Positions 131 to 11,743 of a stretch of 28,130 bases of DNA are shown here, piece by piece. The notes beneath the pieces are model-generated. The model was not told where the DNA came from, ran no database searches, and saw only the letters and a list, made by a program, of their open reading frames with translations. The position numbers and the translations under genes were made by a program. The stretch comes from a virus, in IMG/VR virus record IMGVR_UViG_3300037882_000169, positions 1 through 28,130 of that record; one strand, 5' to 3'. The stretch's first letter is position 1. Every line of letters starts with the position of its first letter.

Positions 131-546
131 TTTTAACATACTTTAATTAAAATGTCAAGTGTTATTATTATCCTTCTTAACAGTGAGTCCGAGATCGGGG
201 TATCCGAGGACGACCAATGTAGTTCTAAAACGAACATAAACCTATCTAGAATTAATTATTTTTATTTTTTAATACCAGAGTACATAATCCATTTAAATAA
301 TCCCAACTAGGCCCTATTGAGAATTTTATTATAAATATAGTTTAGTGCCCAACACCTATAATTTTAATTCATATATTGCCCCTCCCCCTTTCAGGTTTAG
401 GATAACGAACAGACTAATCTGACTTGACCTATAGACTATGCCCTATGTATTGTAACACTTGTGTTCATATTCCATATTATATACAACATATAGTGTATTA
501 CATATCCACATACCACAAGATATAGTATCTATGTACCTATCCTTAT

Positions 547-603
547 ACTGTTGTATTTATACCACACTGTTGTATTTTAGATACACTGTTAAACACCACT
601 CTA
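547..603 (+). repeat. Three tandem 19-bp direct repeats (iteron-like)
   Basis: ACTGTT recurs at 547, 566 and 585, an exact 19-base period. The first two copies share the 12-mer ACTGTTGTATTT; the third keeps ACTGTT only before diverging. Tandem repeats of 17-22 bp next to AT-rich DNA and DnaA boxes are typical of initiator-binding iterons. Short repeat arrays also flank the terminal repeats of T7-like phages, which is the main alternative. Confidence 0.6.
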
Positions 604-652
604 ATCTATCAATCACTTACCACACAATATATCCATGAGTTATTACATAACT

Positions 653-692
653 TAATCCACATTTATCCACAAAGTCATGTCCGTAATCCACA
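653..692 (+). promoter_or_regulatory. Cluster of DnaA-box-like sites
   Basis: TTATCCACA at 663-671 is a perfect match to the bacterial DnaA box. TAATCCACA at 653-661 and at 684-692 each match 8 of 9, and a further 8/9 match, ATATCCACA, lies at 502-510. All are in the same orientation. The starts at 653, 663 and 684 are 10 and 21 bases apart, so the sites lie on the same face of the helix. With the iterons at 547-603 and A/T DNA upstream this looks like an origin that recruits host DnaA. Function is inferred. Confidence 0.5.
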
Positions 693-7417: not shown

Positions 7418-7600
7418 ATGGTAGCACGTAATGATATTACTGGTGACAAGATTCAAACTAAAGAAAGTACCAAAGCTTATGAAGATAACTGGGAAAAAAT
7501 CTTTGGTAAAAAGAAATCTAGAATAGATATCATTGGACAAAATGGAAATGATGGGCTGCACTATGATCAAGTGGAAGACACTAAACCTACCACCGATTAA
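7418..7600 (+). CDS. Conserved phage hypothetical, 60 aa
   Basis: Starts MVARNDITGDKI and contains NWEKIFGKKK. Short proteins with RND-TGD and a later D-IFGKK motif are frequent beside phage primase/helicase genes (from memory), with no known role. It starts on the base after the previous stop, with GAGGAGG upstream, and ends 16 bases before the primase start. Confidence 0.8.
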   Translation: MVARNDITGDKIQTKESTKAYEDNWEKIFGKKKSRIDIIGQNGNDGLHYDQVEDTKPTTD

Positions 7601-7616
7601 CTTATGGAGTTTACCA

Positions 7617-8306
7617 ATGGGCTTTATCCAACACACTGCGTGTCCTAAATGTGGTAGCAAAGACAATCTCGGTGAGTACACCGACAATTGGTACTGCTTT
7701 GGCTGTGGTTATTACAAACTAAAAAACGATCTAGCATCCGTCCGTAGACGGATAGATAACGTCGTCGCTAAAGACGACAATGACATATCGCTAACGGTTA
7801 GTAATGACATACCAAAACAAGCCATGCAATGGCTACTGTCCTACGGACTCATGGGCTCTGACGTAAGTGAGCACTCATGGGGGTGGGTAGAAGACCGTAG
7901 TCTGTTGGTCCTAGTAAACACACCAACCTACTGGCAAGCAAGGAACTTTGGTCCTGGAGTTAAGTATCTTAGCAAGGGAAACAAACCCTTGCTTTCCTAT
8001 GGGAATGGTGGTACAATAGTATGTGTCGAAGATGTTTTAAGTGCAGTAAAAGTTAGCAAAGCTAACAAAGATGTAACTGCTGTACCACTCCTTGGTTCTA
8101 GTGTGTCACCTGAACTTGAGGAAACCCTGTTTAAACAAGCCAATGATGTGATCCTATGGCTCGATAGGGATAAGGCAACAAGTGCTGTTAAACAAGCGAG
8201 AAGTATGCTTGGTAAAGGCATTAGGTGTTCCGTGCTGGTAACGGAATTAGATCCTAAAGAATACTCAGTTAAGGAAATTAACGAATGGTTGAGAAACAAA
8301 TTATAA
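7617..8306 (+). CDS. DNA primase (zinc ribbon + TOPRIM)
   Basis: 229 residues from ATG 7617, chosen because GGAG lies 7 bases upstream and because residue 1 is followed at once by the zinc ribbon CPKC...CFGC (Cys 9, 12, 27, 30). The TOPRIM core has the catalytic Glu in IVCVEDVLSA and the acidic pair in ILWLDRDKA. This matches the N-terminal half of T7 gp4; here primase and helicase are separate genes. It makes RNA primers for lagging-strand synthesis. It overlaps the helicase by 22 bases, so their translation is probably coupled. Confidence 0.88.
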   Translation: MGFIQHTACPKCGSKDNLGEYTDNWYCFGCGYYKLKNDLASVRRRIDNVVAKDDNDISLTVSNDIPKQAMQWLLSYGLMGSDVSEHSWGWVEDRSLLVLVNTPTYWQARNFGPGVKYLSKGNKPLLSYGNGGTIVCVEDVLSAVKVSKANKDVTAVPLLGSSVSPELEETLFKQANDVILWLDRDKATSAVKQARSMLGKGIRCSVLVTELDPKEYSVKEINEWLRNKL

Positions 8307-9526
8307 AACTTTTCTGTGAAGATAAAGAACTCTTTACAAAGTATTATAAATATGTTAATATTAATTATATTAAAACTAATTATAATAATATATATAAAAT
8401 ATTTAATAGTATTAATAATTATTATATTAAATATAATATAAATAATAATATTAATATAAATGATTTAGATATTTTTTATAATACTGAATACATGTTAAAA
8501 GAACAAGAAAGGAAAGAACTTAAACTACTGTTAGAAGAAGTGTTTAACCAAGACATTACTAATCGAGATGCGTTAATCGGGTTACTAGATGAGCATCGTC
8601 ACCGAGCCATCGCAGGCGAGGTAGCATTAGTATCGTTAGATGTAGAGACTGGTAAAAAACCAGTCCAAGACTTGTTAGAATTGTTTAACAAGTTTGAACA
8701 ACAAGAGATGGAACTTGACGTACCTAAACCTATTGAAATGGATTTGGAAAAACTATATGATTCTCAGGTTGCTACTCCTGGCTTACGCTGGCGTGTTAAT
8801 TGGCTTAATCAAGCTCTCGGATCTCTGCGCAAAGGGGACTTTGGCTTTATATTTGCCAGACCAGAAACAGGCAAGACTACTTTTCTGGCGTCGGAAATTA
8901 CTCACATGGTCTCTCAGACTGAGGGAGAAGTACTATGGTTTAACAATGAGGAACAAGGAAACAAAGTAGCTATCCGCTGCTATCAAGCAGCACTGGGTTT
9001 ACCACAAGAGTTTCTCTTTGATAACAGAGAGCGACGACAACGTGAGTATGTACATGCAACTGGTAACCGTATTAAGATTCTAGACTTTGAAGATTCAAAC
9101 AACAAACTACGAATCGAAAACATTCTTAAAACAAGTAACCCAGCATTAATTATCTTCGATCAGATTGACAAGATCAAAGGGTTTAAAGGAGAACGAAATG
9201 ATTTGGAACTCAAAGCAATCTACCAATGGGCCCGTGAAATTGCTAAAACATATGCACCTGTTATTGCTGTTTCGCAAGCAAGTGGTGAGGCAGAAGGTAA
9301 ACTCTATCTTACAATGGACATGGTAGATGGTTCAAAGACTGCAAAGCAAGGTGAAGCAGATTGGATTCTAGGCATTGGTAAAGAACAAGATAACACATCA
9401 CGTACTAGGTTCTTTAACATTGTTAAGAATAAACTAATTGGTGATTCAGATACACTGCCAGACTTACGGCATGGTTCTGTTCAAGTCCTAATCAAACCAG
9501 AGATCGCACGCTATGAAGATATTTGA
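8285..9526 (+). CDS. Replicative DNA helicase (DnaB/T7 gp4-like)
   Basis: RecA-fold helicase of 413 residues. Walker A is ARPETGKTT (about 191-199), Walker B is PALIIFDQID (about 286-295), and IAVSQASGE follows as the arginine-finger/H3 side. It unwinds the phage fork, working with the primase encoded just upstream. Oddity: residues about 20-66 are almost only Asn, Ile, Tyr and Lys, encoded by DNA of nearly pure A/T at 8342-8483. This low-complexity N-terminus is unlike the rest of the gene and of the family. The start overlaps the primase end; AACGA with weak purines precedes the ATG. Confidence 0.88.
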   Translation: MVEKQIIKLFCEDKELFTKYYKYVNINYIKTNYNNIYKIFNSINNYYIKYNINNNININDLDIFYNTEYMLKEQERKELKLLLEEVFNQDITNRDALIGLLDEHRHRAIAGEVALVSLDVETGKKPVQDLLELFNKFEQQEMELDVPKPIEMDLEKLYDSQVATPGLRWRVNWLNQALGSLRKGDFGFIFARPETGKTTFLASEITHMVSQTEGEVLWFNNEEQGNKVAIRCYQAALGLPQEFLFDNRERRQREYVHATGNRIKILDFEDSNNKLRIENILKTSNPALIIFDQIDKIKGFKGERNDLELKAIYQWAREIAKTYAPVIAVSQASGEAEGKLYLTMDMVDGSKTAKQGEADWILGIGKEQDNTSRTRFFNIVKNKLIGDSDTLPDLRHGSVQVLIKPEIARYEDI

Positions 9527-9638: not shown

Positions 9639-9756
9639 TTTGACACGTGAAGATATCTATGATATAATTGATAGTGTTAGTGCTGGTGAAACACTAGAAG
9701 AAACAGTAGAGAAATTCTACCCATTGAATAAGGCGGTCGGAGAATGCGGGAGCTAA
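9607..9756 (+). CDS. Hypothetical acidic protein, 49 aa
   Basis: Starts MIDKILQDRPDLTREDIYDIID, a helical, acidic small protein. GGAGAAAAG precedes the ATG. It ends 13 bases inside the DNA polymerase gene. May be a small helical accessory factor; not recognised. Confidence 0.55.
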   Translation: MIDKILQDRPDLTREDIYDIIDSVSAGETLEETVEKFYPLNKAVGECGS

Positions 9757-10904
9757 TCTTAGATGTTGAAACAACTATATCAAACAAAGGTAATCCCTTT
9801 GATGAAAGCAACAAGCTCTGCTACGTGGGAACTTATGACGGTATGGCTTATGGTCTTCATAACATTGAGTATGATTCTGAGCCTTATGGTAGCCATCTCG
9901 CTAACGTGCAAACTACTGTGGATGCTTGTGACTTAATTATTGGGTTTAATATTAAATTTGATTTGCATTGGATACGACGTTATGGAATTTCTTTTAGCAA
10001 CAAGCGTATATGGGATTGTCAGCTTGTGCATTTTATACTTACTGGACAAACAGCCAGCTACCCCTCCCTCAATGGAGTTGCTGCTTATTACGATCTGGGT
10101 AGTAAGCTTGATGTGGTTAGTACAGAGTATTGGAAGAATGGTATAGATACACCAGACATACCAGAAGATATCCTTACAGAGTATTTACAAGGTGACTTAG
10201 ACCTAACGTATCAAGTGTATCTTAAACAACGTAAGGAACTAAATAAAGCAAGCCCACAACTACGTAGGTTAGTTAGCCTACATAACCAAGACTTGCTAGT
10301 GTTACAGGAGATGGAGTATAATGGACTGGTATTTGATGAAGCTAAATGTACAGAGCTGGGTGAAGAGCTTACAGTACAGATTAAAAGACTCGATGATATA
10401 CTGTATGACTATCATCAAACTGATGGCTTCAACAGTAATTCTACTGAGCACCTCTCTGCTTTACTTTATGGTGGGACTATTGTTTTTAAGCGCAGAGAAG
10501 TTATTGGTGTATTCAAGACGGGTACTAGAGCTGGTCAAGATAAGGAAAGGTGGGTAGACTATCCAATTGTGTTCGAGAAGATTGTCAATCCAATTAAAGG
10601 TTCTGAGCTGGCTAAGGAAGGTTTTTACAGCACAGATGAACAAACACTTAAGTCTCTTAAAGGAAGTAAGAAAGCTAAAGAGTTAGTTGAATTGCTATTA
10701 CGCAGAGCAACTCTAGAGAAACGACTATCTACTTACTATGAAGGACTAGTTAAATTAAGAAAGGAAATGAAATGGAATGAAGGAAAACTACACGGACAGC
10801 TTAACCAATGTGTGGCTAGAACAGGTCGACTTAGTTCAAGCAGACCTAACTTACAGAACTTTGATGGTGAAATTAAAGAACTATTCAGGAGCAGATATGA
10901 CTAA
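9744..10904 (+). CDS. DNA polymerase family A, N-terminal part (exonuclease + thumb)
   Basis: 386 residues carrying the 3'-5' proofreading domain: LILDVETT (Exo I, Asp7 and Glu9), GFNIKFDLHW (Exo II), and YLQGDLDLTY (Exo III). This is followed by the thumb and the start of the polymerase fold (RTGRLSSSRPNLQNF). It stops at FRSRYD, which in complete family A enzymes lies just before motif A; the remainder is in a separate gene at 11024. The two would form one active enzyme by association. The stop overlaps the ATG of a 53-codon ORF (10897). GGAG occurs before the start. Confidence 0.9.
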   Translation: MRELILDVETTISNKGNPFDESNKLCYVGTYDGMAYGLHNIEYDSEPYGSHLANVQTTVDACDLIIGFNIKFDLHWIRRYGISFSNKRIWDCQLVHFILTGQTASYPSLNGVAAYYDLGSKLDVVSTEYWKNGIDTPDIPEDILTEYLQGDLDLTYQVYLKQRKELNKASPQLRRLVSLHNQDLLVLQEMEYNGLVFDEAKCTELGEELTVQIKRLDDILYDYHQTDGFNSNSTEHLSALLYGGTIVFKRREVIGVFKTGTRAGQDKERWVDYPIVFEKIVNPIKGSELAKEGFYSTDEQTLKSLKGSKKAKELVELLLRRATLEKRLSTYYEGLVKLRKEMKWNEGKLHGQLNQCVARTGRLSSSRPNLQNFDGEIKELFRSRYD

Positions 10905-11058
10905 AGAATTAAATGATGTGTATGGTAAAACAGATTTAGATTATGTAAATGAGTTCAATGAGTTTGATGCAGAGCCTGCATATATACAAGCTAAAGTAAA
11001 TGAATGTCAGAAGGAGTGCAACAATGAGCTTAATACAGGCGGATGCCAAGGCTCTTGA
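10897..11058 (+). CDS. ORF between the polymerase halves, 53 aa
   Basis: Starts MTKELNDVYGKTDLD and ends in a Cys-containing tail. AGGAG precedes the ATG by 6 bases. It overlaps the end of the N-terminal polymerase gene (8 bases) and the start of the C-terminal one (35 bases), and is in a different frame from both. It is acidic and helical, with four Cys near the end. It may be the trace of the inserted DNA that split the polymerase, or a peptide that helps the halves associate. Unknown. Confidence 0.55.
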   Translation: MTKELNDVYGKTDLDYVNEFNEFDAEPAYIQAKVNECQKECNNELNTGGCQGS

Positions 11059-11743
11059 GTGGGTATGTGCTACATTTCTAAGTCAAGATCAAACAGCTAT
11101 CAAGGAGATATGGGATAATGTCGACCAACACACAGACAACCAAGAGCGGTTTGGTTTACCAAGTAGACTCATTGCTAAAACGTTCGTATTCCGTCTTATC
11201 TACGGAGGATCTGCATACTCTTATGCTAATGATCCTAACTTTAAAGACATTGGCGGAGAACAGTTCTGGGACGGAGTCATTGGAGAGTTCTATCGTAAAT
11301 ACGATGGGCTTAGTAAGTGGCATACAACAATTGTCGAGCAAGCTAAACGAGATAGAAAACTCACTATGCCCACAGGCCGTGTGTACAACTATGAACCAGA
11401 AGTTAGCTATGGAAAAGTCAAGTGGCCTAGGACAAAGATCCTCAACTACCCTGTACAAGGGCTTGGAGCGGACCTCATGTCCATCGCACGAGTCAGCTTG
11501 GCAAACAGACTTAAAGGAGTGAGTGGAGTAAAACTAATTAATACTGTACATGATTCAATTATTCTTGACATTGATGACAAGATATGCGATAATATACGTA
11601 TAGTTCAATTAGTTGATAAATGTTTTACAGATGTACCAGCAAACTTTGAGAAACTCTTTGGAGTTAAATTTAATCTCCCAATGCGGGTCGAATGTCAAGT
11701 CGGTCCTAACTGGGGAAACATGGAGGTAGTAAATGCTAATTAA
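11024..11743 (+). CDS. DNA polymerase family A, C-terminal part (palm/fingers)
   Basis: 239 residues from ATG 11024, preceded by AGAAGGAG 7 bases upstream. It opens with motif A, LIQADAKALEW (catalytic Asp). Next is motif B, RLIAKTFVFRLIYGG (the Lys and Tyr of the O helix), then motif C, NTVHDSIILDI (catalytic Asp). Together with the 9744 gene it makes a full T7/PolI-type polymerase: joined, FRSRY and LIQAD would be only a few residues apart, as in unsplit enzymes. It overlaps the SSB gene by 11 bases. Confidence 0.9.
   Translation: MSLIQADAKALEWVCATFLSQDQTAIKEIWDNVDQHTDNQERFGLPSRLIAKTFVFRLIYGGSAYSYANDPNFKDIGGEQFWDGVIGEFYRKYDGLSKWHTTIVEQAKRDRKLTMPTGRVYNYEPEVSYGKVKWPRTKILNYPVQGLGADLMSIARVSLANRLKGVSGVKLINTVHDSIILDIDDKICDNIRIVQLVDKCFTDVPANFEKLFGVKFNLPMRVECQVGPNWGNMEVVNAN

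Follow-up and report, generated by a model that had tools for sequence, protein, structure and literature searches.

DnaA-type boxes around an IHF-like site in the leader of one phage clade: a possible host-assisted replication origin

How is replication started in phages that carry a T7-like replisome and no RNA polymerase of their own? The question is not settled in the literature searched, and it is raised here by a 28,130-base virus record (the window, that is, the whole stretch analysed) whose leader contains a cluster of boxes resembling those of the host initiator DnaA. The leader was taken as positions 1–984, with its left end cut and its limits partly set by eye, and was compared with its counterparts in related contigs, among them its two nearest relatives, G001 (50,776 bases) and G002 (45,472 bases). 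The elements of the leader and the window's genes that bear on replication are as follows.

1–128, no strand assigned: extreme A/T tract with one G and no C; the contig starts inside it, and relatives have a counterpart ahead of the hairpin block, interrupted or far shorter in some of them
130–158, minus: predicted sigma-70-like promoter, TTGACA-17-TAAAAT with TG before the -10 (11/12), directed leftward into the A/T tract; the same in G001
187–211, plus: GTCCGA...CGAGGAC hairpin block, kept across the family, with weak folding support in the window itself
306–346, no strand assigned: block ACTAGGCC...TATAAATATAGTTTA, recognized by sequence conservation
378–388, plus: C-run GCCCCTCCCCC, present in most family leaders
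502–510, plus: DnaA box, 8/9, ATATCCACA; the aligned place in G001 is not a box
607–619, plus: IHF-consensus-like site TATCAATCACTTA, kept in the family and lying within the box cluster
653–661, plus: DnaA box, 8/9, TAATCCACA
663–671, plus: DnaA box, 9/9, TTATCCACA
684–692, plus: DnaA box, 8/9, TAATCCACA; aligned with TAATCCTCA in G001 and, by eye, with TAATCCACG in G002
740–984, plus: conserved block, richer in G+C, that lies before the first gene
985–1293, plus: first early gene (102 aa), without a PHROG match, which served to find relatives
7533–8306, plus: DNA primase (PHROGs)
8285–9526, plus: DnaB-like replicative helicase (PHROGs)
9744–11743, plus: DNA polymerase in two frames, 9744–10904 assigned by PHROGs and 11000–11743 placed from its location and from the split polymerase of MEP402

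The rightward genes of the window also include an amidoligase-like gene and a ribonucleotide reductase. The 102-aa product of the first gene has no match among 50,697 phage records, BLAST of positions 480–720 against phages gave six weak matches, and no end repeats were found in the window; a terminator-like stem with a T-run lies after the first gene, at 1320–1342 on the plus strand. The nearest named phages are the Methylophilales phages MEP401 and MEP402 (Zobellviridae) and MW202796. MEP401 and MEP402, OM43 phages described in the available portion of PMC10580990, resemble the window's family in gene order, in the split polymerase and in a divergent region at the skew minimum, and differ in having no box cluster. 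In the relatives, the gene left of the leader is read leftward and encodes a conserved protein of about 210 aa near the terminase large subunit, which we call TerS by its position only, as it has no PHROG match. The description of the locus as a phage leader in an earlier, sequence-only reading agrees with this arrangement, a divergent region with a presumed small terminase gene at one end and the first early gene at the other.

An alignment search with TerS returned 40 loci, of which 29 hold the leader and 11 (L198, L200, L204–L206, L208, L209, L225, L228, L230 and L235) break off, like the window, at the A/T tract or close to it; the 29 loci, the window and MW202796 make up the 31 leaders compared. 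The contig ends at the A/T tract probably reflect an assembly break and possibly a genome end, and the right end of the window has no match to the contig of L198. Common to the family leaders are promoters, the A/T tract, the hairpin block, the C-run and the IHF-like site. A leftward promoter (11/12 or better) is predicted within 80 bp of TerS in all 30 leaders that hold that end, and a rightward TTGACA-17-TAAAAT-like promoter (11/12) in 23 of 30 other leaders; the window and G001 have instead a predicted leftward promoter across the A/T tract from that side. Hairpin-like blocks (187–346 in the window, and in relatives) are conserved in the family between the A/T tract and the C-run and have no Rfam match. 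Rfam at gathering thresholds yielded nothing in the window leader or in 10 relatives, apart from weak unrelated matches in one. In the consensus fold of the leader only 4 of 24 pairs change on both sides, which is weak covariation, and the window stretch folds no better than shuffled sequences (z +0.71), so that no structured or known RNA is claimed. A DNA pattern derived from the hairpin block matched 46 contigs, one of which is, by name, a relative already known.

A strict scan of the whole window for TTATCCACA with at most one mismatch finds seven sites, four of them in the leader. One of the four is perfect and three match at 8 of 9 positions, all on the plus strand, exactly as the sequence-only reading had them, and the measured gaps of 151, 10 and 21 bp bear out the spacing of 10 and 21 that it gave for three of the boxes. 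As to the A/T-rich DNA that it placed beside the boxes, 420–720 has 31% GC, and the extreme tract (1% GC) ends 374 bp before the first box. By the sequence definition the window has a DnaA-box cluster, with more consensus boxes in a short stretch than chance would give: 420–740 holds four boxes against 0.33 expected (P = 0.001, 2000 local dinucleotide shuffles), and four or more occurred in 126–984 in none of 2000 shuffles. Because these regions were picked after the sites had been seen, independent support comes from the same cluster in G001 and G002. With the looser consensus TTWTNCACA and one mismatch allowed, the whole window is poorer in boxes than its shuffles (55 versus 91.5), so the leader is the only special part; both exact copies of TATCCACA in the window lie inside it.

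In G001 and in G002 alike, all four exact copies of TATCCACA are found in the homologous leader, in one orientation. This word is the only 8-mer with at least two copies in each of the three leaders, has zero copies elsewhere in those contigs, and ranks top in G001 and G002 in an unbiased word count that makes no assumption about DnaA; the box clusters reach P = 0.001 or less in local dinucleotide shuffles in all three genomes. The boxes could in principle be chance matches in a C-rich, G-poor leader, the plus strand of 420–720 having 68 C against 24 G and three of the four boxes being imperfect, but the shuffles in three genomes and the cross-genome word test, with its two relatives, disfavour this explanation, which we regard as highly improbable. 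Box number and orientation are kept among the three genomes while the places turn over: the gaps are 38, 67 and 24 in G001 and 168, 13 and 44 in G002, and the word aligned with the box at 684 is one base different in both. Helical phasing, claimed earlier, is consequently a property of the window only (10 and 21 bp) and is rejected as a conserved trait, and the proposed check on conservation of the four sites upholds their number and orientation and not their places, spacing or phasing.

The word WATCARNNNNTTR, which we take to be the IHF consensus, occurs perfectly in 24 of the 31 leaders against 0.79 expected from shuffles, a count that reflects conservation and no independent events, since the leaders are kin. 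The IHF-like site scores 9/9 in the window and 8/9 in G001 and G002, the place in G002 being set by eye at the aligned spot (the best match of the script lay elsewhere), and it sits within the box cluster, flanked by boxes to the left and right. An IHF site among the boxes, the arrangement of an oriC-type origin, is therefore present as judged by sequence. A GGTGT...CACC-like palindrome lies just left of the IHF-like site, at a near-constant distance, in many family leaders; a search of genome contigs with the IHF-module pattern returned two Clostridia-type records, taken as chance. The clustering, the single orientation, the restriction to the leader, the presence in relatives and the IHF-consensus site inside the cluster together favour true DnaA-type sites.

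The boxes themselves have a narrow distribution. Four exact cores are present in two of the 29 other leaders and one in another two; the remaining 25 have none, so DnaA cannot be a general need of the family, and family-wide dependence on it is rejected. In a tree of TerS, from which the window is absent because it has no TerS, one group (94/84; inner fork 99/91) unites both rows with four boxes, L203, which has one perfect box, and two of the cut leaders. Since the IHF-like site and the promoters are widespread and the boxes occur in one group, the former are old and the DnaA boxes were acquired or retained in a single clade. The MW202796 leader (L181) has another repeated word, GTCTTATA, in three direct copies where the boxes would be. 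Those copies and the clade-specificity of the boxes would suit a different explanation, namely that each clade has its own repeats, bound by a phage-encoded protein, and that the likeness to DnaA boxes arose by convergence. Against this, the 8-base core TATCCACA is exactly what we take to be the DnaA core, an IHF-like site stands alongside, and no initiator of the Rep/iteron or any other kind was recognized among the 18 window ORFs scanned with PHROGs; we consider such convergence improbable.

What, then, might the sites do? We lean, with somewhat less than even confidence, towards a host IHF/DnaA complex assisting a transcription-activated origin in the leader, and use of the leader boxes as an origin is plausible. 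In this scheme the leader is a divergent control region with the presumed small terminase gene on one side and the early operon on the other; host sigma-70 RNA polymerase would fire the promoters at and into its A/T tract, IHF would bend the DNA at 607–619, and host DnaA would bind the four boxes around the IHF site to build a host-factor complex. That complex may help to open or to time the origin, onto which the phage helicase would then be loaded. The primase, DnaB-like helicase and polymerase encoded by the phage support the origin reading. RNA_pol (PF00940), the single-subunit phage enzyme, exceeded the cut-off in none of 12 records, the window being a fragment, and with no RNA polymerase gene found, the host polymerase should read the leader.

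At the T7 primary origin a promoter reads into an A/T tract and the polymerase is that of the phage. The leader is like it in having a strong promoter into an A/T tract, as predicted from the sequence, and in the T7-like primase, helicase and polymerase; it is unlike it in the missing phage RNA polymerase and in the presence of an IHF-like site and DnaA boxes. With oriC of the E. coli type it shares consensus-type DnaA boxes with an IHF site among them, and it differs in its divergent promoters, in the helicase and primase encoded by the phage itself, and in lacking an extreme A/T-rich region for opening beside the boxes, since 374 bp separate the A/T tract from the first box and 525 bp separate it from the main cluster. 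IHF plus DnaA is a known pattern at oriC, pSC101 and R6K, according to the accessible part of PMC5043065. A transcription-activated origin is favoured because the promoter into the A/T tract recalls the T7 origin and the pairing of IHF with DnaA recalls these three. The distance to the A/T tract counts against the origin reading, as do the differences in box positions, spacing and phasing among the three genomes, the mismatches in three of the four window boxes and the confinement of the boxes to one clade. The cumulative GC-skew minimum lies near the leader in the window, G001, G002, MEP401, MEP402 and MW202796, a mark that divergent transcription gives as well; in all 26 loci tested it falls right of the IHF-like site, by 307–2185 bp in 25 of them and 3364 bp in the last.

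The position of the boxes in a divergent promoter region would also suit a role in which DnaA at the leader senses the state of the host cell and represses or activates the early promoters, or is drawn away from the host origin. In the portion of PMC9437464 available, CtrA, another host cell-cycle regulator, is reported to control phage genes, and DnaA sites in alphaproteobacterial phages are reported to have no positional asymmetry, the latter telling against control or titration by DnaA. The best-scoring promoter of the window is some 340 bp from the nearest box, and with four sites in each genome, titration would have few to work with unless genome copies are many. We judge this role unlikely.

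Similar arrays exist outside the family. Defined as three direct copies of TATCCACA within about 90 bp, box triplets were found in at least 120 IMG/VR stretches, against 60 for the reversed word as a control. Among the matches listed, 102 of 120 lie outside ORFs of at least 100 aa, compared with 14 of 60 controls, and the 241 gaps peak at 11 (67), 12 (41), 22 (22), 21 (21) and 33 bp (15). In 53 of the 120 loci among the matches listed, a gene from a cluster whose representative is a terminase large subunit (single-linkage, the representative alone annotated) is located within 4 kb. The unit in the arrays L061–L180 is often AGTTATCCACAG at 11 bp. A tandem-box query matched 515 of 50,697 phage records at E up to 10, 169 of them over at least 80% of the query; five phage records inspected have 2 to 5 perfect boxes in the stretch taken, and tblastn with the terminase of one array contig found 131 phage records, none above 60% identity.

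These arrays bear on a further explanation, in which the boxes are a terminus or packaging element in the region of the genome ends, with a part in DNA entry or in the processing of concatemers. The presumed terminase genes are next to the leader, terminase-cluster genes are close to many of the listed arrays, as counted above, and DnaA-box arrays are placed at the end of Arthrobacter phage Tiff81 and, in the T7-like phages phiEap-1 and P483, near the record end or in the terminase/early gap. The injection-stop region of T5, as described in the available part of PMC13250531, likewise has DnaA boxes in repeat-rich non-coding phage DNA. Several relatives, however, are assembled straight through the leader, and the window boxes are not a head-to-tail 11-bp array: phiEap-1 and P483 resemble the window in their direct boxes in the non-coding early/terminase end, but have five perfect boxes each, partly in 11-bp tandem in P483, whereas the window is sparser and has an IHF-like site. 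We regard a terminus or packaging function as quite unlikely.

More broadly, grouped host-DnaA boxes, in many cases one or two helical turns apart, could be a recurrent device of unrelated lytic phages in the non-coding terminase/early gap, tying genome start-up or processing to the host initiator, with the clade of the window as one independent gain on an ancestral IHF–promoter module; this proposal is less likely than not. An origin called by Ori-Finder, with DnaA boxes, is reported in one phage paper (PMC11512268, available in part), and this report and that on T5 make DnaA boxes in phages a known kind of element. The literature on DnaA boxes in phages, in a coverage with most subscription journals outside it, contained no paper on the leader of this family. 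What is new here is the clade, the pairing with an IHF-like site, and how often phased arrays appear to lie near terminase genes.

For phages with this kind of replisome, a compact and testable candidate for the start of replication is a leader that combines promoters with an A/T tract and an IHF-like site, to which one clade adds DnaA boxes. The wider survey points to frequent host-DnaA sites in the neighbourhood of terminase genes, and such sites could link phage development to the replication state of the host.
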